Source of the DNA: Chamaesiphon minutus PCC 6605
GTDB taxonomy: Bacteria > Cyanobacteriota > Cyanobacteriia > Cyanobacteriales > Chamaesiphonaceae
DNA length: 64,000 nucleotides
Reading direction: 5' to 3'
Assembly: GCF_000317145.1 (NCBI RefSeq)
Contig: NC_019697.1
Coordinates: forward strand, 1,922,001-1,986,000
Shown here: positions 4,130 to 48,036 of the stretch, piece by piece
Position numbering within the stretch: the first letter of the stretch is position 1
Layout of the letters: each line of letters begins with the position of its first letter
Notes under the pieces: generated by a model
Database searches by the model: none
The model's input: the letters and a program-made list of their open reading frames with translations, nothing else
Told to the model about the DNA's origin: nothing
Program-made: the position numbers and the translations under genes

Positions 4130-4190
4130 CTTCACATTGTTAATTTGTAAATAGAGAGGTTATTCGATCTAAAGTAAAAGGTATATTTTT

Positions 4191-4574
4191 ATGAAACGTT
4201 ATCTGTCGATCGGTTTGGCAGTTGTTGCCATTTCATTAGCTGCAAACACATCTGTACAAGCACGAGGTAAAACTGAAATGCTTACAAAACCAGAAGTAAT
4301 TACAAAACCAGAAGTACGTACTAAACCAATAGTGCTACCGAGCGACCGCTCTATTACCCCATGTGAATTGGTGAGTGGTGCTTATCAGGGTCAATATCGA
4401 GCTTATTCTATTCCTGGATTTGGAGCGTTTTCTGATGGGGTCAGAAGGGGGAAAATTACTGCTAAAGATCTAGTCAAAGCTGCAATTGATTCTAAAAGAT
4501 TACCACCACAAGCTATCGAAGATCGCAGTTATCTGGGCTATGTCGATCTTCAATTAAAACCGATCCGGTTTTAA
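4191..4574 (+). CDS. Small secreted protein, copy 1 of a tandem duplication
   Basis: 127 residues with a clear signal peptide (MKRYLSIGLAVVAISLAANTSVQA, cleavage after about residue 24). A low-complexity KPEV/KPIV segment follows, then a conserved C-terminal half (GAYQGQYRAYSIPGFG... ITAKDLVKAAIDSKRLPP... SYLGYVDLQLK). I do not recognise the family. The second copy at 4831-6702 has the same signal peptide and C-terminal half. It has its own TTTCA-repeat promoter and a downstream hairpin terminator, so it is probably a single-gene unit controlled with the metal-efflux genes. Confidence 0.8.
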   Translation: MKRYLSIGLAVVAISLAANTSVQARGKTEMLTKPEVITKPEVRTKPIVLPSDRSITPCELVSGAYQGQYRAYSIPGFGAFSDGVRRGKITAKDLVKAAIDSKRLPPQAIEDRSYLGYVDLQLKPIRF

Positions 4575-4662
4575 ACTAGCCGCGTATAGTTCGACCCCAA
4601 TGTCATATAGCTATCTAACGAATACTCGGAAAACCCAGATTCTGTAACAATTGAGTATTCTT

Positions 4663-4688
4663 ATCACCTCAAGGCTTGAGGTGATTTT
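4663..4688 (+). terminator. Intrinsic terminator after copy 1
   Basis: An 11-bp inverted repeat (ATCACCTCAAG / CTTGAGGTGAT, one-base centre) is followed by TTTT. The same hairpin sits at 6793 behind copy 2, so the duplicated unit includes promoter, gene and terminator. Confidence 0.7.
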
Positions 4689-4731
4689 TCATGGCTACCG
4701 TCAGCTTAAATTAATTGGAATCATATCGAAA

Positions 4732-4769
4732 TTTCATCTTAAATTCATAGTATTTTCACCGAAATTTCA
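4732..4769 (+). promoter_or_regulatory. Four tandem TTTCA-like repeats (site 3)
   Basis: Units start at 4732, 4743 (ATTCA), 4754 and 4765, again exactly 11 bp apart, 62 bp before the ATG of copy 2. The bases between the units differ from site 2 while the units are kept, which suggests the repeats themselves are under selection. Confidence 0.65.
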
Positions 4770-5054
4770 TCCCATATTGTTAATCTGTAAATAGAGAGGT
4801 TATTTAATTCATTGTCAAAGGTATATTTTTATGAAACGTTATCTGTCGATCGGTTTGGCAGTTGTTGCCATTTCATTAGCTGCAAACACATCTGTACAAG
4901 CACGAGGTAAAACTGAAGTACTTACAAAATCAGAAGTATCTATCAAACCATTAATACTAGCAGCCGATCGTCCTTCTTTAGGATATATTACTCCATTTGA
5001 ATTGGTTAGTGGGGCTTATCAAGGTCAATATCGAGCGCATTCTATTCCTGGATA

Positions 5055-6539
5055 CATTAGTGACAAGTTAAGAAGCGATCGCACTTGTCAAGCGGGCTTG
5101 AGGCGATGAGTCGAAGAAAAAATTGTCTGTTCGACTCATAGAATCAGGAAAAGGTGCAATAATTAACTTAACATTAGGTTTACGAACAGTTTTAACAATA
5201 CCTAAATCTTGATTCTCTGGGGCAGCAAAATAGGTGACTGGATTGGCAGCTAAACCTTTATGATGAGCTACATGAAAATGATAAAGACCTCGATAAATCA
5301 TCTCTAAAGAAATGCGGTCGAATGGGAGAGATAATTCATCAGCTACAGCATCACCTAAATCGACTAGAACTGCATAAAACAGCCAAGTCCCCCACATCTG
5401 TAATTTAATTCCATTAACTGAACCAGTCCATAAATAACTCAACCCGAGCAATCGTTTAACAGTATTAAAAGCCTCTTCAATTCGCCACCGTCTTCCGTAC
5501 AAATCGGCGACTACATAGGGAGGAAGATTCAATGGGTCGAGTACACTAGTTAGATAAGAATACCAGACTTTACCCACTTTAATTTCGACTAATCTTACAG
5601 TTATATATGGAGTCTTTTTGGTGCCAGACCCCATCCGCACTATTCGGTCACGGATACTATAACTATTGCTAAATACTCGCTCTATCTGTAGCGATGCACC
5701 TTTTTTTTAATCGAGTAATAAAATGAATATCTCTGTTAATTAATTCTTGCCAAAATTGGAAATGATAGAAGCCTCGATCCAAGAGCAATAAAGTGCCCGA
5801 TGTTACTAAATTCAGGATATCTTTCTCAAAATTAACATCTGAAGCTTTGGGATTTTCTCTAAACCAGATTTCAATCGGCAATCTCGTCACCAAATCTATG
5901 ACTACTCCCATTTTTCCCGCTAGTTGTCCGATTGGCACATCAGATAAGCTATCTAATTTCTTGAATATCGCTTCCAATGTGGAGCCATCACATGCCCAAA
6001 TCCGCTCAAATTTTGCTTGAGCAAATTCAATGCTTTGTGGCAACAATCGCTGTTTTCTCTGGTGCCACTTCACTCTAAATTCTGGCAGTAATTCCTTAAA
6101 CACTCTCTCAAATAACTCAGATGGAAAGGTCAGAAATCTTTGTGCAATCGCCTGTTGACTTACTTGTGTTGGCTCACACCACAAAAATCCTTCTCGCCCT
6201 AACATTCGGCTTAGTTCTCTGACTCCTGGCACATTCCGCCACAGTAGCGTCAGCACTGCTGCCATCATCAAGGGTAAATTTAACAGCCGATTTCTCAGCC
6301 CTAATTGTCGGTAGTAATGACTTTGATTGAAAATTGCTGGTGTCAATAAAGCCTCTACTTGAGCGGCGATGATCTCATCTTCCACACCTGGTTGGTGGTT
6401 CTTTTTGGCGTGGTCGCGGTTACTTCTTCGGCGGCTGGTCATCAGGCCTCTATTCCCTCAAACTCTTGACTAGAAACAGTTTGGCATCTTTTTATTACCT
6501 TTTTGACAAATCTCTGATTTTCTTAACTTGTCACGAATG
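5055..6539 (-). mobile_element. IS4-family insertion sequence
   Basis: A 1485-bp element. Terminal inverted repeats at 5055-5074 and 6520-6539 match over 20 bp with one mismatch (CATTNGTGACAAGTTAAGAA). A 9-bp target duplication, TCCTGGATA, flanks it at 5046-5054 and 6540-6548. The single transposase gene, on the minus strand, is frameshifted. Both termini and the target duplication are intact, so the insertion is recent. Confidence 0.9.
5068..6442 (-). pseudogene. IS4-family transposase, frameshifted at an A8 tract
   Basis: The N-terminal frame (6442 down to 5669) carries two DDE aspartates, in WACDGSTLEA and LLLDRGFYHF. The C-terminal frame (down to 5068) carries the IS4 signature YGRRWRIEEAFNTVKRLL (Y-2-R-3-E-6-K) with the catalytic Glu. 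The frames join if one A is removed from the A8 run (T8 at 5701-5708 on the plus strand), which reads RLKKGASLQIERVF and continues open. Either a one-base homopolymer expansion inactivated the gene, or slippage on A8 restores the product at low level. The summed length of about 450 residues fits the family. Confidence 0.85.
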
Positions 6540-6792
6540 TCCTGGATATGGCTCTTTATCGGCGGGTGTCAGAAGTGGGGAAATTACGGCTAAAGATCTA
6601 GTCAAAGCCGCAATTGATTCTAAACTATTACCACCACAAGCGATCGCCGATCGCAGTTATCTTGGTTATGTCGATCTCCAATTAAAATCGATGAAGTTTT
6701 AAACTAGACGGGTATAATTAGATCCCAATGTCAGAGAGCTATCTAACGAATACTTGGAAAACCCAGATCCTACGTAACAATTGAGTATTCTC

Positions 6793-6818
6793 ATCACCTC
6801 AAGCTTTGAGGTGATTTT
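6793..6818 (+). terminator. Intrinsic terminator after copy 2
   Basis: The stem ATCACCTCAA / TTGAGGTGAT is followed by TTTT. It is the duplicate of the hairpin at 4663. Confidence 0.65.
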
Positions 6819-6918
6819 TCATGGCGATCGTCGTAGCGAACGCTCATTAAAATTTTGGTCTGAAATAATTAGATGCTAAAGTTGTATTAACTAAATTAGA
6901 TGAATATTGAAGCTAAAA

Positions 6919-6934
6919 TTTCACTTAAATTTCA
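6919..6934 (+). promoter_or_regulatory. TTTCA direct repeat (site 4)
   Basis: TTTCA units at 6919-6923 and 6930-6934, 11 bp apart, lie about 175 bp upstream of the small basic secreted protein. The stretch 6703-7108 otherwise holds the terminator at 6793 and no gene. Confidence 0.5.
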
Positions 6935-7108
6935 TATTAAGCGCGTAAGCTATATATAGCTAGATACAGCATTCTGCATTGCAGTAAAATATGTCAATCG
7001 CAATTAAACGATCGCACGATATTCGATCTCCACAGATCGTGAAGATCGCGATTTTAATAAATGCTGTAAACGGCTTCACCTCTATAAATCGATCGAGAGT
7101 TACTCTAA

Positions 7109-7342
7109 ATGAAAAAACAAAACATTTTAATGGGTGCTATTGCTAGCATGATGGCTACTCTAGTCTTGAGTCAAGCTAGCTATGCCAATGAATCTAGCAA
7201 TAATGCTTCTAAATCCAGTCCACTATCGGTTCGCACCCAAACTCATGAAGTAGCGATGTTCAACAAACAAGGAAAACCTCACAAACATCCTGGCAAGAAA
7301 GTAAATAAACCAAAGAAAGTATCGAAAGCATCGAAAGCCTAA
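7109..7342 (+). CDS. Small basic secreted protein
   Basis: 77 residues: a signal peptide (MKKQNILMGAIASMMATLVLSQASYA, about 26 residues), a Ser/Asn-rich stretch, then a Lys-rich tail with repeated PKK/SKASKA and an HKHPGKK segment. No known family. The mature protein is strongly cationic and has a few His residues. It lies between a TTTCA-repeat site and a strong terminator, so it is probably a monocistronic member of the same regulon. A role in metal binding or envelope protection is only a guess. Confidence 0.7.
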   Translation: MKKQNILMGAIASMMATLVLSQASYANESSNNASKSSPLSVRTQTHEVAMFNKQGKPHKHPGKKVNKPKKVSKASKA

Positions 7343-7365
7343 GATCGAAAACTTAGTTGAATCTT

Positions 7366-7397
7366 AAGGGAAGTGCGGCAACTGCCGCACTTCCCTT
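7366..7397. terminator. Strong bidirectional terminator
   Basis: A perfect 15-bp inverted repeat (AAGGGAAGTGCGGCA / TGCCGCACTTCCCTT, centre AC) lies between the convergent small secreted gene (+) and the tolC-like gene (-), where it can serve both. Confidence 0.85.
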
Positions 7398-7434
7398 ATT
7401 GATTTATAAAACGCTAACGCTCTGCTCGATCGAT

Positions 7435-9117
7435 TTATCCACCTGTAAGTGTTGCGACACGCAGACTAGATAGAGCGCGATTGTAATCGATAATCGCCGT
7501 GATGCGATTGCCACGAGCGCGAGCCAGAGCGGTCTGGGCTTGAATGACATCAGTTTGCGTACCCACTCCCGCCTGAAAGCGCAGACGAGCTAGTTTGAGA
7601 CTTTCCTCAGCTTGTTGGAGAGCTTGAGCAGAAGTCGCGATATTTTTTTGATTGGAGCCGAGACTGTTGTAAGCTTGTTCGACTTCAAATCGGATTTGAT
7701 TGCGGGTGGTTGTGAACTGGTTTTCAAAAATCTCTTGATTGACTCGTTCTCTGTTTGAGCCAGCTCTGGCAAAACCACCATCAAGGAAGTTCCACCTCAA
7801 CTGTGCGCCGATACTATAGTTATCTTGGGCAGAAGTAGAAGCTGTTAGACTTTTGCCCAAAGTATAGTTAGCAAAAAGATCGACCTGAGCGGAGTCAGCC
7901 GCAGCAGCGACAATTTGTTGTTGTTGGCTGATAGTGCGGCGGGTTAGTTGTTGCTTGACTTCGGGGCGATTTTTGTATGCTAAAACCACACTCTCTTCCA
8001 AAGAATAGCCCCAAGCTCCTAACTCACGCACGGTATCGGCGGCTTTAAATTCAGTATTGTTATCGACACTCAGTCGCTGGGCGATCCTTTTACGGGCGGT
8101 TTGCTGTTGACCTTGAGCGTTGGTGAGATCTTGATTGGCAGTAGCCAGTTGGACTTGGGCACGGAGGATGTCAAATTTCGTACCTACACCAGCTTTTTCT
8201 TGGAGTTGAGCATCGCTCAAACTACGGGTTGCATCCGCGACGGCGGCTTGATTGATGATGACAGATGAATCGGCGGCTTGAAGGTCGTAGTATGCCGTGA
8301 TGACCTGACCGCGTACCAATTGTTCGATTCGCACCAGATCGAGCCTGTCGAAGTTAACTTGCTCTTCGGCGGCGCGAACGCTACTCTGATTTCGACCTGC
8401 GCTCAGGATATTATAAGTAGCTTGGAGGCTGCCTTGGATGTTCGTACTAGTGCTGTTGCCAAATTGAGATTGAGTACCGATAATTAATGGCGATCCTTGA
8501 TTTTGGACGGTACTTGTCAATCCTACTTGCACTGCTTGAGCGGCTTGTGCTTCTCTAATTCCGACTTGAGAGCGATTTACAGTCAGCCGAGCGGCTTGAA
8601 CTTCCCGATTGTTACCAAATGCGATGTCTATCGCCTGTTGCAGAGTAATGGATTTGTTGCCAGTAATCTGAACCTCATTACCTGTTTTGGGAAGATTGAG
8701 ATTATTTTGAAGCTTGGTATTATTGTTAGGTGTTGGGGTTGTCGGAGTCGTTTGGGCGAGGATCTGTGGCAATCTCTCGATTGCTGTTTGTCTTGTTGAG
8801 TTTGGCGCGATTTTATGACTAGCTACAGATAGTAAGCCCCGATCGATACCTGCTAAATTCAGAGATTTTGCCTGAGTGGGTTCGATCTTGCCTAATCCGC
8901 CCAATCCCAGCACAATAATTGCCCCAATTGTTTGCAATCCGATCGCTATTTGGCGTTGGCGTAGTCTCTCCTGCGGAGAATCGTTCGGTGAAGATGCTCC
9001 AGCTTTAATTGGCAGGCAACTAGTTTGTAAATCTGTCTGTTGGTGCAAAATATTTTGTGAAGGTTCGCTCTTTCTATTTAATATATGAATCAATTTGATT
9101 AGAGTTGGCATTTTCAA
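7435..9117 (-). CDS. TolC-family outer-membrane efflux protein
   Basis: 560 residues from the first ATG. A long N-terminal region holds a hydrophobic stretch (about 57-77) that probably serves as signal sequence, then a low-complexity TPTTPTPNNN linker. Two repeated OEP (TolC) domains follow, from LQQAIDIAFGNNREV (about 158) to LARARGNRITAIIDYNRALSSL near the end, with the typical long Gln/Ala-rich coiled-coil helices. It should form the outer-membrane channel for the CusBA-like pump encoded divergently; the intergenic region carries TTTCA repeats. A dispersed repeat lies inside the N-terminal coding part (8954-8982). The true start could be internal, since the first 50 residues are unlike TolC. 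Confidence 0.85.
   Translation of the reverse strand: MKMPTLIKLIHILNRKSEPSQNILHQQTDLQTSCLPIKAGASSPNDSPQERLRQRQIAIGLQTIGAIIVLGLGGLGKIEPTQAKSLNLAGIDRGLLSVASHKIAPNSTRQTAIERLPQILAQTTPTTPTPNNNTKLQNNLNLPKTGNEVQITGNKSITLQQAIDIAFGNNREVQAARLTVNRSQVGIREAQAAQAVQVGLTSTVQNQGSPLIIGTQSQFGNSTSTNIQGSLQATYNILSAGRNQSSVRAAEEQVNFDRLDLVRIEQLVRGQVITAYYDLQAADSSVIINQAAVADATRSLSDAQLQEKAGVGTKFDILRAQVQLATANQDLTNAQGQQQTARKRIAQRLSVDNNTEFKAADTVRELGAWGYSLEESVVLAYKNRPEVKQQLTRRTISQQQQIVAAAADSAQVDLFANYTLGKSLTASTSAQDNYSIGAQLRWNFLDGGFARAGSNRERVNQEIFENQFTTTRNQIRFEVEQAYNSLGSNQKNIATSAQALQQAEESLKLARLRFQAGVGTQTDVIQAQTALARARGNRITAIIDYNRALSSLRVATLTGG
8954..8982. repeat. Small dispersed repeat inside the tolC-like gene
   Basis: CGTTGGCGTAGTCTCTCC and the following GGAGAATC match the dispersed repeat family seen at 1220, 11379 and 48151. 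It lies in the N-terminal coding region (residues about 45-55) and keeps the frame, adding the segment around SPQERLRQRQ. Confidence 0.55.
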
Positions 9118-9266
9118 TTGTCTAAGAGATCGGGTATTTAGATCGCGAGCTGCTCTTGCTCCAACGGCTGTGTTAAAGAATTACTCCCAACATTAGACAC
9201 TATTAACAACTCGCAATTGGATCGGTCAAGCACTCAGTTTAAAACCCGTTAGTGAAATTTAGATGA

Positions 9267-9282
9267 ATTCACCTCAATTTCA
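9267..9282 (+). promoter_or_regulatory. TTTCA-like direct repeat between tolC and adaptor genes (site 5)
   Basis: ATTCA at 9267-9271 and TTTCA at 9278-9282, 11 bp apart, lie 47 bp before the adaptor start and 150 bp from the divergent tolC-like start. The site could regulate either gene or both. Confidence 0.5.
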
Positions 9283-9328
9283 TCTAGCACTGCAAAACTA
9301 GGAACTATCGGCGTTTAGTTGAGCAACT

Positions 9329-11326
9329 ATGGCTATAAATACCAACTCATACACAACTTCATCCTCAATCACTCCAGCCGTTCGCGCAGTGGGGCGGTTA
9401 AGCTGGCTATTACTACCCATCTGGATCTCGCTAGTATCCCCATCAGCATTCGCTCATGGTGGGCATGGCAACGAATTTGGCTCTCAAGAGGGAACGAAAA
9501 GTACCAAAGTGCAGGTGGTCGATGGAGCAACGGCTCAACAGATTGGAGTGCAAACAGTCGCTGCCAAAAAACAAAGCTTAAATGTCGAAATTGCTGCTAC
9601 TGGGCAAATCGAATTATTACCTAGCAAAAAAGTAGAAGTTACCGCACCGATTAAGGGCAAGCTCGTACAGCTACTCGTACAGCCTGGAGCAAGAGTCAAA
9701 GCAGGACAAATCCTCGCGACGCTCTCTAGCCCCGAACTCAACGATTTGCGAACGAGTTCCCTGGAAAAACGATCGACAGCCCTCGCCCTACTCCAACAAG
9801 CTCAAACCGATCGCAATCTCGCCCAACAGAGCTACCAAAAAATCGTCCAAATCGCTGCTGCTGAAACCGATCGAGCCAACAGTCAATTAGCGGCGGCGCA
9901 ATCTCGACTAGCGCGAGAGCAACAACTAGTCAAAAGTGGCTCGATCGTCCAGGCGGCAAAAACTAGCTATCAGCGGCAACAACAAATTGCCACTGCGGAA
10001 ATCAGCTCTGCTCAAACCGAACTAGAGTTAGCCCAAGAGCGTTATCAAAAGGATCTAGAACTAGTCAAGAGTGGGGCACTAGCACGCCGTCAGATGTTGG
10101 AATCTCAGGCTAAACTAGCCGCAGCCCGAACTGCATTAGTCAGAGCGCAAAGTCAGGCAGGAGTAGCCCAAGCTGCCACCGACTTGCGTAAGGCTGAAAC
10201 CGATCTGCCCCTGCGAGAATTGCGGGATGCCGAAAAGCAGGTAGCTGATGCCAGAGCAGAACTAGCTAGAGCGATGAACCAAAAATCGGTAGTCGAAGCC
10301 CAAGCGCAATTCCAAAGAGCCAACTCAGCCGTAACCGCCGCCCAAACTCAGCTCAGACTCAGCGATGCTAGTTACCAGGGGCGACTGGCACAATTGGGAA
10401 ATCGGGCTAATGCTCAGGGGATCGTCACCGTTACCGCCCCGATCGATGGCACAATTGCCGACAGAGAAATTACGATCGGGCAGTCTGTCGCCGATGCTGG
10501 TGCGAGATTAATGACGATTACCGACGATCGCCAAGTATTGGCAACGGCGAATATCTATGAGCGCGATTTAGGACGATTAAAAATCGGTCAGCAAGTTAGT
10601 GTTAAAGTGCCTGGAATGGCGGATAAAGTATTTTCTGGTCAAATCTCTCGAATTGGAACGGCAGTGGACTCCCAGAGCCGTGTAGTTCCCGTTCAGGCAA
10701 CCTTGGATAATAGCCAGGGGCTACTCAAAGCCGGAACGTTCGCCGAAATCAAGCTGGCGACAGGTCAAATTACTAGCCCAGTAGTCGTAATTCCGGCTGG
10801 TGCGGTAGTAGAAGCAGACCAAGAAAAATTAGTATATGTCAAAAGTGGCGACAGCTATCAGCCCACAACCGTTACTCTCGGACAAACCGTTGGCGATCTA
10901 GTTGAAGTCAAGACGGGACTGTTTGCTGGCGATCTGGTTGTCAATAAACGCGCGCCTCAACTCTATGCCCAATCTTTAAAAAAGAAGCCAGCTAGCGAAG
11001 ATAAAGCAACAACAGAAGCTAAACCTGACAATGCTGTCAGTCAAAACCAAATACCAACTTATCTCATCTGGGGATTAGTACCTGTTGCGGGTATTCTCGG
11101 CGGTAGTGCTTGGTGGCTGAAGAAAAGAAGCGAACGGAACGCCAACAGTTCAACCGATCTTATCGAGCCAGAGGACGAACTGAATTATCTGCCCGTTGAG
11201 GAAATACACACAATTGAGGAAGATTCTAAACAGCATAATTCCCCAAACTCCAGTCAATATCCACAGATTGGTGCTACCTCGCGGGACGTTGGCGGAGCCT
11301 CTCGGAACGAGAATCTCTATCGATAG
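9329..11326 (+). CDS. CusB-like periplasmic adaptor of an HME-RND efflux pump
   Basis: 665 residues. An N-terminal membrane/signal segment (about 22-42) is followed by a His motif (AHGGHGNE). A biotinyl-lipoyl half (EVTAPIKGKLVQLLVQPG), a very long alpha-hairpin (about 130-330, many Gln/Ala heptads), the second lipoyl half (VTVTAPIDGTIADREITIG) and beta-barrel and membrane-proximal domains follow. It links the inner-membrane pump (11830) to the TolC-like channel. Unusual for CusB, it has a C-terminal transmembrane helix (LIWGLVPVAGILGGSAWWL, about 575-593) and an acidic tail. The last 20 residues are encoded by a dispersed repeat, so the tail may have been altered by repeat insertion. Confidence 0.88.
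   Translation: MAINTNSYTTSSSITPAVRAVGRLSWLLLPIWISLVSPSAFAHGGHGNEFGSQEGTKSTKVQVVDGATAQQIGVQTVAAKKQSLNVEIAATGQIELLPSKKVEVTAPIKGKLVQLLVQPGARVKAGQILATLSSPELNDLRTSSLEKRSTALALLQQAQTDRNLAQQSYQKIVQIAAAETDRANSQLAAAQSRLAREQQLVKSGSIVQAAKTSYQRQQQIATAEISSAQTELELAQERYQKDLELVKSGALARRQMLESQAKLAAARTALVRAQSQAGVAQAATDLRKAETDLPLRELRDAEKQVADARAELARAMNQKSVVEAQAQFQRANSAVTAAQTQLRLSDASYQGRLAQLGNRANAQGIVTVTAPIDGTIADREITIGQSVADAGARLMTITDDRQVLATANIYERDLGRLKIGQQVSVKVPGMADKVFSGQISRIGTAVDSQSRVVPVQATLDNSQGLLKAGTFAEIKLATGQITSPVVVIPAGAVVEADQEKLVYVKSGDSYQPTTVTLGQTVGDLVEVKTGLFAGDLVVNKRAPQLYAQSLKKKPASEDKATTEAKPDNAVSQNQIPTYLIWGLVPVAGILGGSAWWLKKRSERNANSSTDLIEPEDELNYLPVEEIHTIEEDSKQHNSPNSSQYPQIGATSRDVGGASRNENLYR
11287..11313. repeat. 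Small dispersed repeat forming the end of the adaptor gene
   Basis: CGTTGGCGGAGCCTCTCGG followed by AACGAGAA is a copy of the dispersed family. It encodes the last residues of the adaptor (RDVGGASRNENLYR), so the present stop probably came with the repeat. Confidence 0.55.
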
Positions 11327-11378
11327 CATTGACATAACAACATCATTAACATCGGGCACAGTGCTATCTCGACAAGTT

Positions 11379-11407
11379 CGTTCGCGTAGCGTCTCCATTG
11401 GAGAATC
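11379..11407. repeat. Small dispersed repeat downstream of the adaptor gene
   Basis: CGTTCGCGTAGCGTCTCC followed by ATTGGAGAATC has the typical form of these repeats with an internal GTCTCC...GGAGA palindrome. It lies in the 157-bp gap before the small membrane protein gene, 66 bp after the copy at 11287. Confidence 0.6.
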
Positions 11408-11483
11408 GATATTGTCTGAAGTATAGATGATGGCTGTTCCCTCTACTAGCTAAAAGTAACCTAGTGCAACTACTCCTGTTGTT

Positions 11484-11753
11484 ATGAATCAAACATTTAC
11501 TGTCAATCTAATTTGGGGCATAATCCCATTTTTAGGCATGATTATTGGTGGTGCCTTTTGGTTGCATAACAGACGCGATCGAATCGCAAATGCTTCAATC
11601 CATTCGCTCGATCTGGCGAAAAAAGTGCAAACTATTTCCACTGACGAATTACCAATGTCAGAGTTAGATCCCAATCGATATCTGCCGATCGTTATCAAGG
11701 AGACAGAAGATGATGATGATGCCGAACCTCCCTATATCGGCTGGTTTTATTGA
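11484..11753 (+). CDS. Small membrane protein resembling the adaptor's C-terminal tail
   Basis: 89 residues. One transmembrane helix (LIWGIIPFLGMIIGGAFWL, about 9-27), a basic HNRRDRIANAS stretch, then an acidic C terminus (EDDDDAEPPYIGWFY). The helix and basic stretch align with the tail of the adaptor just upstream: LIWG..P..G...GG..WL..R..R.AN.S. It is a free-standing version of that tail, possibly split off or duplicated. It lies between the adaptor and pump genes, so it may be a small subunit of the pump assembly (inference). The C-terminal acidic-PPY ending recalls the PPYDDPLY endings of the small proteins at 25967 and 53547. Confidence 0.65.
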   Translation: MNQTFTVNLIWGIIPFLGMIIGGAFWLHNRRDRIANASIHSLDLAKKVQTISTDELPMSELDPNRYLPIVIKETEDDDDAEPPYIGWFY

Positions 11754-11829
11754 AATCGATGACTATTAATTATTATGCTCGGTTCGCTAATTAATCCGCT
11801 GATACTTATCCTCATATCTAACACTAAAA

Positions 11830-14800
11830 ATGCTCGGAAATATCGTTCAGTGGGTAATTAACCGTCGCTGGCTGGTCGTACTAGCCGCTGCGATCGTCTC
11901 ATTGTGGACAGTTTATGTCATTCCCCAGATGCCGCTGGATGTGTTGCCAGCTTTTGCGCCGCCACAGGTGGAAATCCAAACCGAAGCACCCGGACTCGCA
12001 CCAGAGGAAGTAGAATCCCTAGTAACATTACCGATCGAGAGTGCTATCAATGGTACGCCTGGAGTCACTGCGGTGCGTTCTTCCAGTGCGGCGGGAATTT
12101 CGGTGGTACGGACGGTTTTTAGTTGGTCAACTGACATCTACCAAGCGCGTCAATTGATTACCGAGCGACTGCAACAAGCCGTTAGTAAACTACCGCCAGG
12201 AGTCGAACCGCCCCAAATGTCTCCCACCACTTCGCCCGTCGGTTTGGTGGTGCAGTATGCTTTTACTGTCGCCGATGACGCGAAAGCTGCTACTCCAAAT
12301 TCCCTGATGGCAGCACGGCGGATTGTCGATTGGCAAGTGACAAATCGCCTTTTAGCCGTGCCAGGAGTCAGTCAAGTTTTGGTGTTTGGTGGCGATGAGC
12401 GACAGTTTCAAGTATTAGTCGATCCGGTCAAATTAGCAGCTTTTAATATTACCTTAGACCAAGTTACCCAAGCGACTAGAAAAGCAAATGTCAATGCCGC
12501 AGGTGGTTTTTATATTACCCCCGATACTGAGAGCTTAATTCGGGGCATCGGTAGGATCGAATCGATCGAAGATCTCCAGAAATCGACGATCGTATCTCGA
12601 AATGGCACCCCCGTCAGACTGCAAGATGTCGCCGATATTCAAATTGGTGCGGCACTAAAACGTGGCGATGGCAGTTTTAATGGTAAGCCAGCAATTATCG
12701 TGATGGTGAATAAGCAGCCCAGCTACGATACGCCAACTGTCAGCCGCGCGGTGGAAAAAGCGATCGCCGAAATCAAAGTTGGCTTGCCCAAGGATATTCA
12801 AGTTAAGACCACTTTTCGTCAAGATAGTTATATCGAATCTTCCGTCGATAATGTGCGTTCTTCGTTGATTCAAGGGAGTATTATTGCTGCAATTATCTTA
12901 ATTCCATTTCTGCTAAACTGGCGAATTTTGGCGGTATGTCTGTTAGATTTTTTCTTAACATTACTATTTGGGATGTTAGTACTCTCATGGTTGGGAGTTG
13001 GTTTGAATACCATGACATTAGGCGGTTTGGCTGTCGCAATTGGAACCGCGATCGATGATGCGATTGTCTATGGTGAAAATACCTATCGTCGCTTGCGCGA
13101 AAATGAAGCTGAGGGCAATCCCCTCACCCCGCTAGAAATCATCTTTGAAGGTTCTCAAGAGGTTCGCGATTCACTCATCGGCGCGACGATTATTGGGATT
13201 ATTGTCTTCTCACCAATTTTCACATTACCAGGAATTGAAGGGAAGATTTTCACCCCAATGGGAATTGCTTATTTAGCCGTAGTTGTCGTTTCTAGTTTAG
13301 AATCTTTACTCGTTTCTCCGGCGTTGTGTGCGATTTTATTACCCGCCACTAAGGTGTCACAGCGGGAACCGTGGCTGGCGAGATTTTGCAAGGCGATTTA
13401 TAACGCATGTTTGAATTTTTCGATGAAAAATCCGCTCTTAATTATGGGGACTGCCACAGTTTTGACCGTCGCATCAATGATAGTTATTCCTTCATTTGGT
13501 AGAGCATTTTTACCAGAGTTTCAAGAACAGACAATGGTAAACACGCTATTGTCCTACCCGACTGTTTCTCTCGAAGTTAGCACCAAAGCGGGTCATGTCG
13601 TCGAGGAGTCATTGAAAAATGATAAGCGGTTTACATTCATCCAAACCCGCGCCGGACGCGCTGCTGGTGACTCTGATGCCGCAGGTGTGAATCTGGCTCA
13701 CGTTGATGTCGAAATCAGTAAACTAGGGATGGAAAATCGGGAAGAATCACTCAAAGTCATGCGAACAGCCTTCGAGAAAATCCCAGGTGCAGCCGCAAAT
13801 ATTGGGGGGTTTTTGCAACATCGAATGGATGAAGTTTTATCAGGGGTAAGAAGTTCGATTGCCGTGAAAATTTTCGGTTCTGACTTAGCCGAGTTGCGGA
13901 AAATTGGGCAAGAAGTAGAGAAACAAATGGCAACAGTTAATGGTGTCGTCGATTTACAACTCGAACCGCAATTACCAGTACCGCAGATTCAAATTAAATT
14001 CGATCGGGATGCAGCGAGTCGTTACGGGCATACAGTAGGCGATCTATCTGAGACGATCGAAACTGCTCTTAATGGTAAAGTTGTTTCTAAAATTCTCGAA
14101 AACCAACAATCTTTCGATCTACTTGTCTGGTTGAAACCCGAAGCCCGACAAAATTTAGAAACCATTCGCAATCTTTTAATCGATACCCCCAATAATCAAA
14201 AAATCCCGTTAGCTAGTATCGCTAAGATCGAGCGAGGCAAAGGGCCAAATACCATCAATCGGGAAAATGTATCGCGCTTAATTGTCGTCTCAGCTAATGC
14301 CAAAGGTCGCGATATCCGATCGGTTGTTACGGAGATCGAAACTAAAGTTAAAAGCAACGTCCAATTACCAACGGGATATTTTATTCAATACGCAGGTCAA
14401 TTTGAAGCGGAAGAACGTGCCACTAAAAATATTTTAGTTTTTGGCGCGATCGCGTTTGTAGCAATTACTGTCCTGATGTATCTTTCCGTTAAATCTATCC
14501 CGTCAACACTAATGATTATGATTAACCTGCCAATTGCTTTGGTAGGTGGGGTAATTGCAGTAGCTCTCACAGGTGGTGTGATTTCGATCGCGTCTTTAGT
14601 CGGATTTGTATCCTTATTTGGCGTAGCAACTCGGAACGGGTTATTACTGGTAGATAATTACAATACTAAATATGTCGAAGGAATGCCGATGAAGGAAATT
14701 ATTGTCAAAGGTTCGATGGAGCGACTAAATGCGATTTTGATGACAGCTTTAACTTCTGGCTTGGGTTTAGCACCAATGGTATTCCAAGGTGGATCGGGAC

Positions 14801-38744: not shown

Positions 38745-40328
38745 TCCCCACCCTCAGCGAAGCGGGGTGGGGAGGAATGCGAGTGAGTGAACGATTGCAC
38801 CCGCCCACAAGACGCAAAGGCGTAGCCAGTGGGAGATGGGCGGGTGTATGAGCGAACGAACAAAATCCCTCGCCTAAACCCTTGAGTATTATTATCTTCA
38901 ACAGTTATAATAATTACAAAATCTGTTGAAGCTATGAATCAAGTCATCACCGCAAAACTAAAGCTTAATCTCACCATCGAACAGAAATCGGCGGTGCGTG
39001 ATACTGCTTTGGCTTACCGCGACGCTTTGAACCACGCCTCTAAAGTTGCTTTTGATAATGGCAAGGCTAGTAATGGGGCTAAGTGTCACTTGCAGCATAA
39101 AATGGCGGAAAAAGCCAGGTTATGCTTCACAGAGCGAAGTACCTTGGGGAGTAAAGATAGAAGTGGAAGTAGTTCACAGAAAGAATTTTAGCCAAATGGA
39201 TTGTGTTCTTCATCTTCCTGATTGAGACTTTCAGGCGATCGATCGCTTAAATAAACCAGCCCTGCTAAAAGCAAAAGTTGGGATGAGCACAACAAATAGA
39301 TGTAATCAGTTCAATAACTGTTTATCTTTAAAAAATCTTGCACAGCAAGGGTTTGAGTTATTTTGCATCAGAACGATTTAATTTTATCTTGATAAAATGA
39401 ATCATATATTGTCTGAGAGTTCTCAGAAATAGCTGCTTTTTAGTGAGATTTTGTACCCAATTCGCTAAAAGAACTCATCGCCTTGTTATGCTTCATTTTT
39501 AGAACTCAACGCCAATTTATGATACAAAACTCGATCGAATCGATCGCCTAGAATGACCTGTTTTCGTTTCTAGACCGCCAAGTTATGATTCACAAATCCG
39601 CCATTTTATGCTGCAAGTGACAGAATGCGATATCTAGCAGTAGAGACAGATCTGAACAATCGGACTGCATTCTATTCTGGCAAAGAAGCTAGGCACAAGG
39701 CTAACCGATACTATAAAGCTAGACAAACCTTACAGCGCAAAGACACTCGATCGGCAAAGCGGAGACTAATTGCTTTGGCTGGGAGAGAGAGACGGTTTAT
39801 CGCTGATGTAAATCACCAAATGAGTAAAGACATTGCGAAACCTAATAGTCTAATTGGTTTGGAGAACTTGACCGGAATCCGCGATAGAACTAAAACCAAG
39901 TCAGGCAAAAGGGCAAGCAAGAAACAGCGCAGAGCTAATCGGAATAAAGCTAAATGGTCATTTGCTGAATTGCACAGCTATATCGACTATAAAGCTAATT
40001 TGATTGGCAGTTTAGCAACCAAAATTCCGGCTCATTACACTTCGCAAAGCTGTCCTAAATGTGGGCATACATCGAAGGGTAATCGACCAGACAAAGGATT
40101 GTTATTCCGCTGTGAGTGCTGCGCTCATGAGATCCATGCGGATCTTGCAGGTGCTAGAAATATTGCAATGAGAACGTTGCTCGTCCGACAAGATTGGATG
40201 AGTACGGGTGCCTTGTCAGTGCGCCCTGATGTGTCGCGTGATGAAACTAAAGCTGAGATCCTTTCGAGGTTTTCAGAATTGAGGTGGAGCGCAGATACAA
40301 GCTACCCGCTCAGCGAAGCGGCGGGTAG
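38745..40328 (+). mobile_element. IS200/IS605-type tnpB-only element
   Basis: A hairpin at 38745-38773 (stem TCCCCACCC / GGGTGGGGA) lies left of the tnpB start. A hairpin at 40302-40328 (stem CTACCCGC / GCGGGTAG) lies at its 3' end. Both have the loop TCAGCGAAGC, as expected for matching left- and right-end recognition hairpins of a single-strand-transposed element. No tnpA gene is present. The element is broken by the 39084-39622 insertion and an accompanying deletion. Exact cleavage sites cannot be placed. Confidence 0.65.
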
Positions 40329-42212: not shown

Positions 42213-42483
42213 TTAGGGGGTCGATTGAGATTGACTGAGTTGTTGCTTAGGTGCGGGCATTGCAACCGTTGTAACACTCAACGATCTGGGTCGATCTCCA
42301 CGATAAAGACCGATTTGCAAGTTGCTACCAACTCGCTTCTGTTCCACAATTTGCTGCACCGAGTTGGCATCTTTAATCTGTTGTCCATCAATTTGCTCGA
42401 TTGCATCTCCAGACCGCAATCCGGCTTTGGCGGCTGGGGAATCGAGGGTTACTTTGGTCACTAACACACCCTGACTGTGGTAG
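42213..42483 (-). pseudogene. htrA-type protease, 3' part, cut off by a Tn7-like transposon
   Basis: Encodes the PDZ domain (SQGVLVTKVTLDSPAAKAGLRSGDAIEQIDGQ... NLQIGLYRGDR) and the end of an HtrA/Deg-type serine protease; the 5' part is at 46986-48036. Joining the two parts and counting the 5-bp target duplication once gives 1317 bases, 438 residues, in one frame. The transposon's end supplies a chance start codon at 42548 for a chimeric frame. Confidence 0.9.
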
Positions 42484-42724
42484 TGTGACTTATGGGATAA
42501 CTTGGCACAGTCGTCAACCATAAATTGGCTTTTTAATAACGAAAACACGTCGTTTCAGGCGATCGCTCGCGATAAGTTGTAAACCATAACTTGGCAGTAA
42601 GTACCTAAATTCAATCATAATAAGGCAATGAGTTCTTTTTGAGAATTGTGTGCTAACATCGCTAAAAATGGCAATTTTCAAGAACTCTCAGCCAAGATAT
42701 GGTTGACTCCAAGGAGTATTCAAC

Positions 42725-45430
42725 TTGAACCCAAGAGAATTTGAACGATGGTGTCAGACACTGAACTTGCCACCAGCAGCCATCGAAGCGATCGCTAAGA
42801 TCCGGTCGGCTCCCCCAAGCCGTCGCGTCCAAGGACGAGCCTCTAATGTCAGCGGTACCTACCCTTCCCAAAAAATGGGGTTGACCATCCAATTTGAAAG
42901 CCACAAGGTAGAATTGTGGGCGATCTACTTGATGGAACACGACCCAACTGTTCTAGAGTTTTACGACCAACCATCCTGCTTTAAAATTCAATACACCAAC
43001 AAATCTGGACGCAAGATCGGTCACTATCACACGCCAGACTTCTTTGTCCTGGGCACCAAATCAGCCGCCTGGGTGGAATGGAAAACCGAAGCCGAACTGG
43101 AGAAACTGAGTGAAAAATATCCCACTCGTTATCTCCAAGCCGCAGATGGCTCGTGGCGATGCCCGCCTGGAGAGGCTTATGCTTCTCCATTGGGTCTTGA
43201 ATATCACGTTCGCACTGATGCCTCATTAGACCCCATCTATATCCAGAACTTAATCTTCCTAGAGGATTACCTCGGATTTAAGACAGACAGTAATCCGTCG
43301 ATTCAAGCACTGGTCAAAGAGAGAGTTAAAACAGCACCAGGCATCACTTTAGCCGCTCTGTTGGCATCCTCACCCCAAATCAGTGCCAATGATGTCTATG
43401 TGATGATAGTCCTCGACCAACTCTACATCGCACTCTTAGATGTGCCGCTCGTACAGCACGAACGAGTACGGCTATATCCAGACCGCCAGACTTATGACAC
43501 TTATCGAGAAAGTTCTCAACACCAAAAAGATCTAACTATTGCTGACACTGCACCACCGACATTAGTTGCCAACACTCGTCTGCGCTGGGATGGCAGACTC
43601 TGGACATTAGTTAATCTGGGAGAGACAACCACTACCCTACTACCAGAAATCGGACAGCCACTGCAAATATCTTCCGCATTCTTTTACCAACTTCTCGACG
43701 GCGGAGCAATTAACTTTCCTGAAACAGAAGGAGCGACGAATCCAGCAGTAATAGCATTGATGGAGGGAGCATCCCCAAGCGATCTGAGAACAGCTAACCA
43801 ACGGTTTGGGGCAGTCATGGCAGAGCGAGAGCAAGGAGCCGCAGGGCAGAGCGATGTCTCCAAACGGACTCTGTACCGATGGTTGAAGCAGTTGAAAGAG
43901 GCAGAACTTAAATACGGTTGCGGCTATGTCGGATTGCTACCCAAAACGCAAGCACGGGGGAACCGGACAACCAAAGCCCCAAACGTATCGAGTGAATTAC
44001 TCAACACCTTTATTACCGGGCAGTTTGAAACCCCCACCCAAGCACCCGCCGCTTCAGTCTATCGAGCATACCAACGAGCTTGCGAACAGCAGGGCATTCC
44101 CTCACTGTCGCGGTGTACTTTTTACGCTCGTCTCCAACAACGACCGATTCACGAGCAGACTGAAAAGCGCAAAGGCTCTAAAGCTGCCTATCGCCACCAA
44201 CCTTGGTATTGGGAACTAACTTACAGTACCCCTCGCCACGGCGACCGCCCCCTGGGTATCGTTCATATCGACCACACTCAACTCGATCTAGAATTGCGTT
44301 CTGCGACAACAGGAAGATTGCTGGGAAGACCTTGGCTGACCTTAATGGTAGATGCCTATTCACGCCGCATCCTCACCATTTATCTGACCTTCGACCCACC
44401 CAGTTACCGTTCCTGCATGATGGCGATTCGCATCTGCGTTCAACGCTTCGGTCGCTTCCCGCAAGCCATCGTGGTCGATGGTGGGAAAGAGTTTCACAGC
44501 GTCTATTTTGACACCTTACTCGCGCGTTATCACTGTACCAAAAAGACTCGTCCTGGAGCCAAACCCCGCTTTGGTAGTGTAATCGAGCGACTGTTTGGGA
44601 CTACCAATACCCAGTTAATCTTCAACTTGTCAGGCAACACCCAAGCGACCAAACAAGTGCGAGAAATTACCAAGGCAGTTAACCCCAAACAACATGCCCT
44701 GTGGACATTGGGCGATTTGTACGCCTATTTGGTTGAGTATGCCTATGTTGTTTACGACCAAAACGAACACCCAGCCTTATCGATGTCACCCCAGAGTGCT
44801 TACGAGCAGGGAGAAATGAACGCAGGGGAACGACTGCATCGGCGGATTGCTTATGATGAAGATTTTATCCTCGCCACTCACCCCAGTCCGCGTTCGGGAC
44901 AGGCTTTAGTTCAACCTGGAAAGGGGATTAAATTGAATTACCTCTACTATTGGAGCGATGCGTTCCGCCATCCTGAAGTCGAACGCACGAAAGTCTCAGT
45001 GCGTTACGACCCCTTCGATTTAGGCGTGGCTTATGCTTACGTTCAAGGGCGATGGGTTAAGTGCATTTCTCAGTATTACAGCATTTTCTCAGGACGCAGC
45101 GAACGAGAACTGCTGTTAGCTTCGCTCGAAATCAAGCAACAAGCCAAACTCACTCAGACGAACACTACTATTTCGGCTAAACGTCTAGCTGATTTCCTTA
45201 GTAATGTCACCGCTCATGAGGCTTTGATGCTGCAACGCTTGCGGGATTTGGAGGGGCAAAATGTCCTCAATACACTCGGACAAAGAGCGTCGTCTGCTCC
45301 ACAGAGCCAGCCCCAGCCACAAACAGAACCACTCGCTCCTAATAGTCTTCAAACCCTTGCTCCCACTCAACCTAGTCCAGCCTTAGTCTTAGATCTGTCC
45401 CAAATCCCGTTGTTTGAGGAGTACCGTTAA
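42725..45430 (+). CDS. TnsA-TnsB fusion transposase
   Basis: 901 residues. Residues about 30-180 look like the TnsA nuclease: E63 (KVELWAIYLMEHDP), D105 (HTPDFFV) and E118/K120 (AWVEWK) form a PD-(D/E)XK site. The rest is TnsB: helix-turn-helix regions about 360-480, then an RNase-H-like core with D516 (VHIDHTQLDLE), D585 (VVDGGKEFHS) and E621 (GSVIERLFGT), the D-x35-E spacing of the family. With both nucleases intact the element should be cut out on both strands. Its stop overlaps the tnsC start (TAATG). Confidence 0.85.
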   Translation: MNPREFERWCQTLNLPPAAIEAIAKIRSAPPSRRVQGRASNVSGTYPSQKMGLTIQFESHKVELWAIYLMEHDPTVLEFYDQPSCFKIQYTNKSGRKIGHYHTPDFFVLGTKSAAWVEWKTEAELEKLSEKYPTRYLQAADGSWRCPPGEAYASPLGLEYHVRTDASLDPIYIQNLIFLEDYLGFKTDSNPSIQALVKERVKTAPGITLAALLASSPQISANDVYVMIVLDQLYIALLDVPLVQHERVRLYPDRQTYDTYRESSQHQKDLTIADTAPPTLVANTRLRWDGRLWTLVNLGETTTTLLPEIGQPLQISSAFFYQLLDGGAINFPETEGATNPAVIALMEGASPSDLRTANQRFGAVMAEREQGAAGQSDVSKRTLYRWLKQLKEAELKYGCGYVGLLPKTQARGNRTTKAPNVSSELLNTFITGQFETPTQAPAASVYRAYQRACEQQGIPSLSRCTFYARLQQRPIHEQTEKRKGSKAAYRHQPWYWELTYSTPRHGDRPLGIVHIDHTQLDLELRSATTGRLLGRPWLTLMVDAYSRRILTIYLTFDPPSYRSCMMAIRICVQRFGRFPQAIVVDGGKEFHSVYFDTLLARYHCTKKTRPGAKPRFGSVIERLFGTTNTQLIFNLSGNTQATKQVREITKAVNPKQHALWTLGDLYAYLVEYAYVVYDQNEHPALSMSPQSAYEQGEMNAGERLHRRIAYDEDFILATHPSPRSGQALVQPGKGIKLNYLYYWSDAFRHPEVERTKVSVRYDPFDLGVAYAYVQGRWVKCISQYYSIFSGRSERELLLASLEIKQQAKLTQTNTTISAKRLADFLSNVTAHEALMLQRLRDLEGQNVLNTLGQRASSAPQSQPQPQTEPLAPNSLQTLAPTQPSPALVLDLSQIPLFEEYR

Positions 45431-46881
45431 TGAAGGATGTTGTGACTGTCGATCTGACGCTGGAATTAACATCCAAGCTGAATCACTTTAAAGAGTATGC
45501 TGTGTCACATCCTCAACTACTCCAGGTAGATAAGGTATTGATGCAAGCCATTCAAGAACCCGCTGGATTTGCTCATGTGCTGATTTATGGGCCTTCTGGG
45601 GTGGGTAAAACGACGATGATTCGTCAAATTTCCCGACGGTTAAATGAGATCTCAAATGAGATCCCACCAGCGGTTGTTACAGACCGCTCCAGCTATAGTA
45701 ATGGTGGGGTTGCGCCAGTACCCTTATTGCTGCTGGAAACACGTCCACCGGATGGTGGAGCCTTCAACCGAGCAGATTACTACCGCACTGCTCTAAAACT
45801 GTTGGGTGAACCCTTCTACGAACGCCGTCTGTTGGTCGATATCGATACCGAACAAACGATTGAGAAGAAAGGCCGTGGACGGAGTAAAGCTACCCAGTTT
45901 AATGATTCTCCCGAACTGCGTCATGCGCTCGAAGCAGCGATGGCGAAACGGGGCGTAAGAGCTGTGATTCTCGATGAAGCCCAACATCTGATGAAGGTTG
46001 GCAGTGGCGCGAGTGGTGGTAAGTTACTCGACCAATTGGACTGGATTAAGTCGATGACGAATGTGACTGGGGTGCTGCACATTCTGATTGGCACTTACGA
46101 GCTGTTGAACTTTCGCAATTTAAGCGGGCAGGCATCGCGGCGGGGGCTGGATCTGCATTTTCCGCGTTATCTGTTTCAACACGAGCAAGACCGTCAGGAT
46201 TTTCAAGGGGTGTTATTGGCACTGCTCAAGCAAGTTCCACTCACGACTGATATCCCTGCTTTGATGCAGCATTGGTTCTATTTTTACGAACGGTCGATTG
46301 GTTGTATTGGTGTACTCAAGGACTGGCTGATTCGGGCGGTGGCGGCAGCTATCCGCGAGGGGAGTGACACTTTGACTCAAGGGCGATTAGAGGAACATGC
46401 GTTGTCTTTGTCTCAATGCGAACGGATGGCTCTGGATGCGATTGAGGGCGAACAAAAGCTGGGCTATGCGGAAAGTCGGCGCGACCATTTATGGCGGTTG
46501 TTGCAATCTGGGATGACCTCAACGACTGTGCCTACCACTGTTGTCTCCACAACAGTGGCTGTCGAGGATGCTCCGCCACCTGCCAAAAAGCCAAGGAAAA
46601 AGCGTTCCACTTCGTCAACTACTGAGTCAGTGACTGCATCTGTCGAGACTTTCGAGACTATCGTTGAACCTGTCCCGCCTAAGAAAAGAAGGAGTAAAAA
46701 GGCTGTCACTACGCCAGCGCCAGTCCCAGATCCAGTCCCAGAAACTTTGAATGTCACAACCAACGATCTGGCAGTAGATCTGCTTGGGGCTGAAATTCCG
46801 CTTCCTGTAGCCGAACCAGCTAAGAAAAAAAACTCAAGGCGTGTCGGACAGCGCAATCCACAGCGAGATCCAGTTGGCTGA
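45430..46881 (+). CDS. TnsC-like AAA+ transposition ATPase
   Basis: 483 residues. Walker A GPSGVGKTT (54-62) and Walker B RAVILDEAQHL (about 178-188); sensor region GVLHILIGTYELL; C-terminal AAA+ lid helices to about 340. A low-complexity tail of some 120 residues (Thr/Val/Pro runs, KKPRKKRS and PPKKRRSKK clusters) follows. TnsC forms filaments on target DNA and links the target selector with TnsB. The basic tail is longer than usual and could bind DNA directly. Translationally coupled to tnsAB. Confidence 0.88.
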   Translation: MKDVVTVDLTLELTSKLNHFKEYAVSHPQLLQVDKVLMQAIQEPAGFAHVLIYGPSGVGKTTMIRQISRRLNEISNEIPPAVVTDRSSYSNGGVAPVPLLLLETRPPDGGAFNRADYYRTALKLLGEPFYERRLLVDIDTEQTIEKKGRGRSKATQFNDSPELRHALEAAMAKRGVRAVILDEAQHLMKVGSGASGGKLLDQLDWIKSMTNVTGVLHILIGTYELLNFRNLSGQASRRGLDLHFPRYLFQHEQDRQDFQGVLLALLKQVPLTTDIPALMQHWFYFYERSIGCIGVLKDWLIRAVAAAIREGSDTLTQGRLEEHALSLSQCERMALDAIEGEQKLGYAESRRDHLWRLLQSGMTSTTVPTTVVSTTVAVEDAPPPAKKPRKKRSTSSTTESVTASVETFETIVEPVPPKKRRSKKAVTTPAPVPDPVPETLNVTTNDLAVDLLGAEIPLPVAEPAKKKNSRRVGQRNPQRDPVG

Positions 46882-46985
46882 GATGATTGGGGGGTGGACT
46901 ACTGCTACTAAGATTTTCAAAGGCAGGTACTTGTGCTTGTCAAGCATAAGTTGTCATTTTCCGCCAAGTTATGCCAGAAGTCACA

Positions 46986-48036
46986 GGTAGATCGTCAGGT
47001 TGCTGTTGGGATCGTCATTAATTTGCTTTTGGAGATCGGGAGTTAACGTCACCATTTCAATCCCCAAATAGGGATGCTTGACGATGCCTGTAGCAATCAA
47101 CTGGTTGGCGATCGTTTTGGCAGTATTAATGGGAATTGCAAAGCCCAGTCCGCGAGCATCCTGAATAATCGCTGTATTCATGCCAATCACTTGTCCCCGT
47201 GCATTGAGGAGGGGGCCACCTGAGTTACCAGGATTGATTGACGCATCCGTCTGAATAAAGTTAACTCGCTCGTTTGGGGCACCGATATCACTGCTGGAGC
47301 GACCTGTAGCACTAATAATCCCGGATGTGACCGTATTATCTAAACCGAGAGGATTCCCAATTGCAATCGCCCATTCTCCTGGCTTCAAGCGAGCGGAATC
47401 GCCCAGTTCGACCACGGGTAAATTGTTCGAGGGGATTTTAACAACCGCTACATCAGTAACCGGATCGGTGCCCATCACTTTGCCTTGAAATGTGCGTCCA
47501 TCTTTGAGCGTCACCTTCACGGTATTAACTCCATTCACCACATGAGCATTTGTGAGAATTTCGCCATTGGAGCTGATGATAAAGCCCGAACCAATTCCTC
47601 TGACAATTTCCTTTGATGGTGAGCTTGGCACTTGGGAGCCGAAGAACTTTTGGAAAAAAGGGTCGTTAAATTCAGCCGGAGGTTGCTTGGTAACTGTCTG
47701 CTTCGAGTCGATGCGAACGACTGCGGCTCCTGCTTTATCGACAACTTGAGTGATGAAGTTTGAGGGTGTTGGCACCGATGCCAATCGATCGGCAGGCACT
47801 GAAGCGATGGGAGTAGAAATCGAGGCTGGATGCTGTGGCGTGAAAAACATCATGCTTTTTGTAAATCCATAATTTATAGCGATGGCACCTCCAGCTCCCA
47901 ATAAAATTAGACCGAGCGGAGTCAATAATTTTGCTCGAACAAAATCTCTGTTGCTACGATGCTGTCGGATATTTGGATCGAGATCGAGCGGACTGACTTC
48001 AAATCTATTGTGAGATTCACGATTTTCGGTTTGCAT
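46986..48036 (-). pseudogene. htrA-type serine protease, 5' part, split by a Tn7-like transposon
   Basis: Encodes an N-terminal membrane anchor (about 38-55) and the trypsin-like domain with H165 (ILTNAHVV), D195 (VTDVAVVKI) and S272 (NPGNSGGPL), then [18 protein letters not shown]. It is cut at about residue 349 by the transposon. The PDZ part is at 42213-42483. The truncated product keeps a complete catalytic domain but no PDZ domain, so a soluble or membrane-bound protease without substrate recognition might still be made. HhoA/HhoB/HtrA-like cyanobacterial protein. Confidence 0.9.

Follow-up and report, generated by a model that had tools for sequence, protein, structure and literature searches.

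The 64,000-nucleotide window analysed here (Chamaesiphon minutus PCC 6605, contig NC_019697.1, positions 1,922,001 to 1,986,000) contains a complete Tn7-like transposon of 4502 bp at 42484-46985 on the forward strand, inside the gene htrA. The element carries only a tnsAB fusion gene and tnsC and belongs to a lineage in which no TniQ target selector was detected. It is probably an autonomous, cargo-free transposon whose lineage has lost TniQ/TnsD and whose TnsC loads on DNA without a sequence-specific selector, aided by a basic segment of the protein.

The element and its lineage

The terminal 23 bases of the element, TGTGACTTATGGGATAACTTGGC and GCCAAGTTATGCCAGAAGTCACA, have the TGT...ACA form and are identical at 21 of 23 positions. 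Direct copies of GGTAG, to which no strand applies, flank the element at 42479-42483 and 46986-46990 as a 5-bp duplication. With the element and one GGTAG taken out, a 438-amino acid (aa) HtrA frame reads through on the minus strand without a break. The 3' part of the interrupted gene lies at 42213-42483 and the 5' part at 46986-48036, its listed open frame extending 5 bases into the element. No tRNA attachment site was seen at the htrA insertion. The upstream end (42484-42724, terminal TGTGACTT) was assigned from motif matches and the inverted repeats I1, I2 and I5, and has five 12-mers resembling TnsB sites at 42496, 42519, 42585, 42616 and, inverted, at 42690. The downstream end (46882-46985, terminal AAGTCACA) was assigned from motif matches at 46945 and, inverted, at 46962. 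These seven 12-mers each agree with CATAACTTGGCA at 9 or more of 12 positions; in 300 single-base shuffles the number of such matches averaged 0.4 and never exceeded 3.

Two genes, both on the forward strand, fill the element. The tnsAB gene (42725-45430, TTG start) encodes 901 aa combining a TnsA PD-(D/E)XK nuclease with a DDE transposase, and tnsC (45430-46881) encodes a 483-aa AAA+ ATPase, its reading frame beginning on the final base of the tnsAB stop codon. The remaining listed open reading frames (ORFs) overlap these two genes, and no cas genes, TniQ, TnsD or cargo are present between the ends. An earlier note on this DNA had described the ends, the duplication, the repeated sub-terminal sites, the two genes, the insertion within the body of htrA and the lack of a selector, and all of these are borne out.

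Against Pfam, TnsAB scores 37.1 bits for the TnsA-like N-terminal family (PF08722, cut-off 26.5), 28.5 for Mu-transpos_C (cut-off 21.7) and 32.3 for rve, just under the cut-off of 32.6. TnsC exceeds the cut-offs of both AAA_22 and TniB. The closest solved relative of TnsAB is 9bw1_M, a chain of a TnsABCD-DNA transpososome, which aligns over residues 4-864 (E 7.7e-257). TnsC aligns with 8fcu_Q (383 residues, E 3.2e-76) over residues 9-370 only. Both entries are presumably from PmcCAST, a type I-B2 CRISPR-associated transposon (CAST). The model of the TnsA-like domain, residues 1-260 (42725-43504), has a mean predicted local distance difference test score (pLDDT) of 90.3, and its Foldseek matches are 9bw1_M (E 1.1e-29) and Tn7 TnsA 1t0f/1f1z (E 7.6e-7 to 3.3e-6). 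The predicted structure thus confirms the TnsA fold of the N-terminal region. The catalytic residues named in the earlier note (E63, D105, E118, K120, D516, D585 and E621) are at those positions and are invariant in all 38 aligned TnsAB rows. The element has a TnsB-type DDE transposase, an adjoining TnsC/TniB AAA+ ATPase, a TnsA endonuclease, TGT..ACA ends, several TnsB-site motif matches and a 5-bp duplication, as expected of a Tn7-like transposon; it lacks a TniQ/TnsD selector, which is near-universal in the class rather than strictly defining.

The own genome (6.76 Mb in three contigs, C1, C2 and C3) has three identical 4502-bp copies, including the one in the window, and one 4513-bp copy with a 90% identical TnsAB. 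The large contig C1 carries all four full copies. The small contigs C2 and C3 each carry a gene-less derivative of 556 bp; the two are identical but have different flanks, which suggests that they were mobilised in trans. All six copies have perfect 5-bp duplications and all of these differ (GGTAG, CATTG, TCAAA, GGAAT, GAAAT and ACAAC). Since identical copies occupy different sites, they point to recent movement. A single damaged element was considered as an explanation and is ruled out by the three identical copies and the 21-row lineage described below.

Relatives were collected as 29 loci from a pattern-based scan of genome contigs and as TnsAB matches at E ≤ 1e-60, found in 21 of 386 genomes of the phylum, own genome included. 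A copy was assigned to the close lineage if its TnsAB match had at least 58% identity over at least 600 residues. This gave 34 copies: 27 listed matches, those in G306, G199 and G048, and the four own copies; G328 and G127, with the same coordinates as G392 and G403, were counted once. TniQ was found on the same contig (within 500 kb in the own genome) for none of the 34, several of these contigs being short and some copies partial. No tniQ was found inside any close relative with both ends located. Among 14 places fetched from plasmid records, none had an annotated TniQ within about 4 kb, in gene tables that are incomplete and with L118 cut by the record end. The more distant copies differ: 11 of 11 full-length copies at 42-48% identity in the genomes of the E ≤ 1e-60 search have TniQ no more than about 4 kb away, as do 10 of 11 full-length copies (at least 757 residues) at 39-47% in a second listing. 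One of these ten TniQ proteins is under the Pfam cut-off, and the eleventh copy (G400:C170) is cut by the contig end. Both 45% relatives fetched from plasmid records also have TniQ within about 4 kb.

Ten of 28 close-lineage host genomes (G199, G306 and eight others) have no TniQ match at E ≤ 0.001. G199 and G306 are 99% complete and have intact TnsAB and TnsC. One contig of G199, 5126 bp long, coincides exactly with a single element, TGT at one end and ACA at the other, as a collapsed repeat would give. TniQ above the cut-off is present in 15 of 25 genomes in one scan. Two TniQ loci exist in the own genome, each within another Tn7-like system: L033, with an intact 319-aa TniQ in a distantly related system, and L032, which is decayed. 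Five larger relatives (L042, L046, L047, L049 and L062, with 4.8-6.8 kb between ends) were considered as possible carriers of a hidden TniQ; this was rejected, as their contigs are without one. The small extra ORFs between tnsC and the end of these relatives, three of which were scanned and have no Pfam match, are possible regulators or passengers. At E ≤ 1e-50, TnsAB matches 61 places in 45 plasmid records, both lineages together. Carriage by phages was considered and rejected, as TnsAB had no match in phage records at E ≤ 1e-30 and TnsC had none in viral contigs.

The tree of the 38 TnsAB rows was built in IQ-TREE under LG+C20+F+G4 by posterior mean site frequency and is rooted by midpoint only. 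The 21 TniQ-less rows are on one side of a branch with 100/100 support that is present in 200 of 200 bootstrap trees. The 17 other rows are TniQ-associated, labelled from TniQ scans (L097 on a match below the cut-off). Since the TniQ-associated side takes in the Bacillota row L061, the simplest reading of the tree is that TniQ was lost on the branch leading to the TniQ-less group. The TniQ-associated rows L091, L092 and L099 each have a 275-aa TniQ directly after tnsC, which in L099 lies inside the 4900-bp element. A 100/100 branch parts the window row from these three.

The TnsC segment and the target sites

The TnsC proteins of the two lineages differ in a Lys/Arg-rich segment that is specific to the TniQ-less lineage. 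In the window protein it covers about residues 371-457 (46540-46800) and is predicted to be without structure. All 17 full-length TniQ-less rows have the segment and none of the 14 TniQ-associated rows does; copies with a truncated TnsC were excluded from these counts. Between the last core helix and the end motif lie 121-211 aa in 16 of the TniQ-less rows (all 17 but L057) versus 30-52 aa in the 14 TniQ-associated rows. At least two K/R clusters are kept in each of the 17 rows (for example KKPRKKR, PKKRRSKK and KKRQTRKKK). Smaller lineage-inserted positions are at residues 83-90, 146-148, 195-197 and 273 of the window protein. In ten pairs the omega of the segment is 0.14-0.45 versus 0.04-0.16 for the core, which indicates purifying selection that is weaker than on the core. 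In the core, 12 positions are fixed differently between the lineages, including K to A at 115 and R to T at 120.

The earlier note had described a Lys-rich tail of about 120 residues. A basic segment does exist, but the protein does not end in a basic tail. Its last 12 residues, VGQRNPQRDPVG (46843-46878), are the motif V/L-G-x-R-x-P-x-R-D-x-V/I-G, which is common to the TniQ-bearing relatives and occurs with small variations in both lineages (in a variant form in L100 and L105). The segment is probably disordered, as judged from the model, and on its distribution among the rows it is a good lead for what replaced TniQ. The TnsC model itself was rejected as structural evidence, as it is too poor beyond a featureless tail.

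There are 20 distinct insertion sites with a perfect duplication: six in the own genome, five in genome contigs, eight in plasmid records and L121. Nineteen of these were aligned, using only copies with perfect duplications; L120 was dropped because it has the same site as L107, L121 was added after the analysis, and nine sites without a duplication were left out. L110, whose ends were not located, and L118 have no complete pair of ends. A common target motif, which the earlier note had thought an alignment of insertion sites might reveal, was not found in the 19 sites, and a specific target motif is not upheld by them. There is a weak symmetric preference for a purine (R) 8 positions before the duplication centre (17 of 19) and a pyrimidine (Y) 8 positions after it (16 of 19). 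The best column has a Kullback-Leibler divergence of 0.69, which 1.2% of random window sets reach. A preference for A+T-rich targets was also considered; the sites, taken without the interval from -60 to -30, are 54-63% A+T, compared with 54% for the own regions and 55-61% for the loci of the relatives, which is no clear preference.

Proposed mechanism and alternatives

The chemistry, the capture of targets by TnsC alone and the part played by the segment are proposed as follows. The TnsB domains of the fusion would bind the sub-terminal sites, pair the ends and join them, in line with the biochemistry of Tn7. The fused TnsA would cut the other strand and so make the process cut-and-paste, as the conserved active sites and the 5-bp duplications suggest. 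ATP-bound TnsC on target DNA would activate TnsAB, and insertion would leave the duplications. In this lineage TnsC would load on DNA non-specifically, helped by the basic segment, and hand the target to TnsAB; insertions would be scattered as a result, MuB-like as in Mu/MuB. The scattered targets and the TniQ-free hosts are consistent with such Mu-like capture by TnsC only. For the loading of TnsC the basic segment would be the best candidate, the alternatives being the 12 changed core residues or a host factor. Target choice by TnsC alone through the Lys-rich segment, as the earlier note had suggested, is plausible.

PMC11406308 states that a Tn7-like TnsC normally waits for its selector and that the transposase is latent until a target-selecting protein has captured a target. 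In a related I-D CAST a little RNA-guided activity persists when TniQ and TnsD are absent, and the authors of that work suggest recognition of Cascade by TnsC (PMC10293859). The TnsC of this branch is therefore not wholly dependent on TniQ.

Several observations weigh against selector-free loading of TnsC. Of the 29 distinct sites for which both ends were located, nine are without a duplication (L038, L040, L042, L045, L052, L058, L059, L093 and L119), and four of the first eight come from metagenome-assembled genomes (MAGs). Four of the ten TniQ-free hosts (G402, G403, G404 and G408) have a partial or broken copy, and two hosts, G386 and G388, are MAGs. Outside the close lineage, G070 (with a copy that is split and partial) and G305 (a 33% partial match) are also without a TniQ match. 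Help in trans is possible in the own genome, where L033 has an intact TniQ. A TniQ too divergent for PF06527 could escape the search, and several contigs are short and the plasmid gene tables incomplete. The TnsC model has a mean pLDDT of 52.4 and supports the disorder of the segment weakly. The loss of TniQ and the TnsC segment fall on the same branch, so that their link rests on one evolutionary event. The segment may also be a tether rather than a DNA binder. In a further TniQ-free host, G397, TnsC is truncated in the copy examined.

The missing duplications may have an explanation in the plasmid copies L113 (Microchaete diplosiphon NIES-3275) and L119 (Tolypothrix PCC 7712). These have a common left flank and different right flanks, which suggests that a duplication can be lost when copies rearrange with one another. 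The same is assumed for the remaining eight sites.

It is doubtful that the basic segment merely extends the tether that joins the C-terminal peptide to the AAA+ ring while a core change makes TnsC constitutively active. The retention of the peptide in both lineages would fit this, as would the 12 fixed core differences; the peptide is possibly one that binds TnsA, by analogy with 1t0f, which by its title is a TnsA/TnsC(504-555) complex. However, a mere spacer would not need the K/R clusters that are kept in every row. It is unlikely that a host factor or DNA feature (replication, conjugation, nucleoid proteins) recruits TnsC with the segment as its docking site. The many plasmid copies and the location of both 556-bp derivatives on C2 and C3 would agree with such recruitment, and a basic and variable segment suits protein binding as well as DNA binding; however, the own four full copies are all on C1 and the sites have no common feature except the weak R and Y preference. 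The least probable explanation is a TniQ-deleted derivative that depends on the TniQ of another Tn7-like element in the cell (here L033), a possibility raised in the earlier note, for although TniQ is present in the own genome and in many other hosts, it is made quite unlikely by the ten hosts without a match, by the own genome's other transposases being only 27-28% identical to TnsAB over just 116-313 residues, and by the occurrence of one diverse TniQ-less lineage under purifying selection, unlike repeated recent loss.

Loading of TnsC without a selector is the preferred and likely explanation. A broader reading, which is possible but tentative, is that a Tn7-type transposase evolved selector-free targeting. 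After the loss of TniQ, a repeat-built, basic, disordered TnsC segment would have taken over DNA capture, changing a tightly controlled Tn7 machine into an element like an insertion sequence, one by which derivatives without genes are mobilised too. Because this lineage has conserved TnsA, TnsB and TnsC, recent copies and no detectable TniQ, and because some of its hosts show none anywhere, it lets the role of TniQ and the freeing of TnsC be tested directly. A natural two-protein, apparently selector-free TnsABC system would be a useful contrast to CASTs, and the element may show how Tn7-type machinery works unguided.

Known systems and neighbouring elements

Tn5469 of Fremyella diplosiphon/Tolypothrix is like the window element in being cargo-free and of about the same size, with a TnsAB fusion, TnsC and TGT..ACA ends. 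It differs in having TniQ after tnsC and a TnsC of about 375 aa, whereas the window element has no TniQ and a 483-aa TnsC. Locus L123 of Tolypothrix PCC 7712 (NZ_CP063788.1) is probably Tn5469 itself. Its best ends span 4904 bp, match at 21 of 24 positions and have no duplication, and its genes encode TnsAB (909 aa), TnsC (375 aa) and TniQ (272 aa). The figures of 4904 bp and 909 aa correspond to those reported for Tn5469. L123 is outside the tree and has 74.6% DNA identity with L099. Tolypothrix PCC 7601 and PCC 7712 also carry the TniQ-less lineage. Tn5469 is described as apparently untargeted and as carrying one TniQ in PMC11406308.

The type I-B2 and I-D CASTs (PmcCAST and CyCAST) are also related, TnsAB and TnsC being homologous over most of their length to 9bw1_M and 8fcu_Q. 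The window element differs from them in having no TniQ, TnsD, cas genes or cargo and in its TnsC, which exceeds the 383-aa solved chain by about 100 aa. Phage Mu (MuA/MuB), IS21 and Tn552 combine a DDE transposase with an AAA+ ATPase and are not known to have TniQ or a TnsA nuclease, with scattered targets for Mu. According to PMC11406308, MuA/MuB and the Tn7-like elements belong to separate branches, and the I-B2 and I-D CASTs derive from Tn7-like elements with fused TnsA-TnsB.

Absence of TniQ alone has precedent. In PMC8649781, tnsD/tniQ is present in only 73-97% of transposons per clade; PMC10293859 calls TniQ/TnsD ubiquitous in the Tn7 branch. In the literature searched, parts of which were available as extracts, no description was met of a coherent TniQ-less TnsAB and TnsC lineage with an altered TnsC, and the paper on cyanobacterial Tn7-like elements by Hsieh and Peters (2022) may cover it.

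The TniQ-bearing relative L109, at 3652-9920, has two right-end-like sequences 322 bp apart, and its left end, inverted, matches them at 20 of 20 and 18 of 20 bases. L099 adjoins further end-like sequences, and L123 adjoins a gene annotated as Mu transposase C-terminal. It looks as though the TniQ-bearing, Tn5469-like elements insert next to or within one another.

The own genome has two other Tn7-like systems. L033 (C1:3592000-3611000), at 7162-13662, has intact TnsA, TnsB, TnsC and TniQ and a Cas6 gene (PF09559, E 3.8e-59), and adjoins an ORF that is glmS-like by its sequence. It is possibly a remnant or variant of an I-B1-like CAST. L032 (C1:1184500-1204000), at 7478-12192, is a decayed third system with a TnsA-like ORF, a split TnsB, a broken TnsC and a short TniQ, of which TnsA and TnsC were named from their sequences.

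The window also has a 539-bp gene-less element at 39084-39622 with a perfect 25-bp inverted repeat (TGTCACTTGCAGCATAAAATGGCGG) and no target duplication. From the ORFs, it appears to sit in a damaged tnpB-like gene. Part of it is 72% like the upstream end of the Tn7-like element, and its ends resemble those of L038 and L040.

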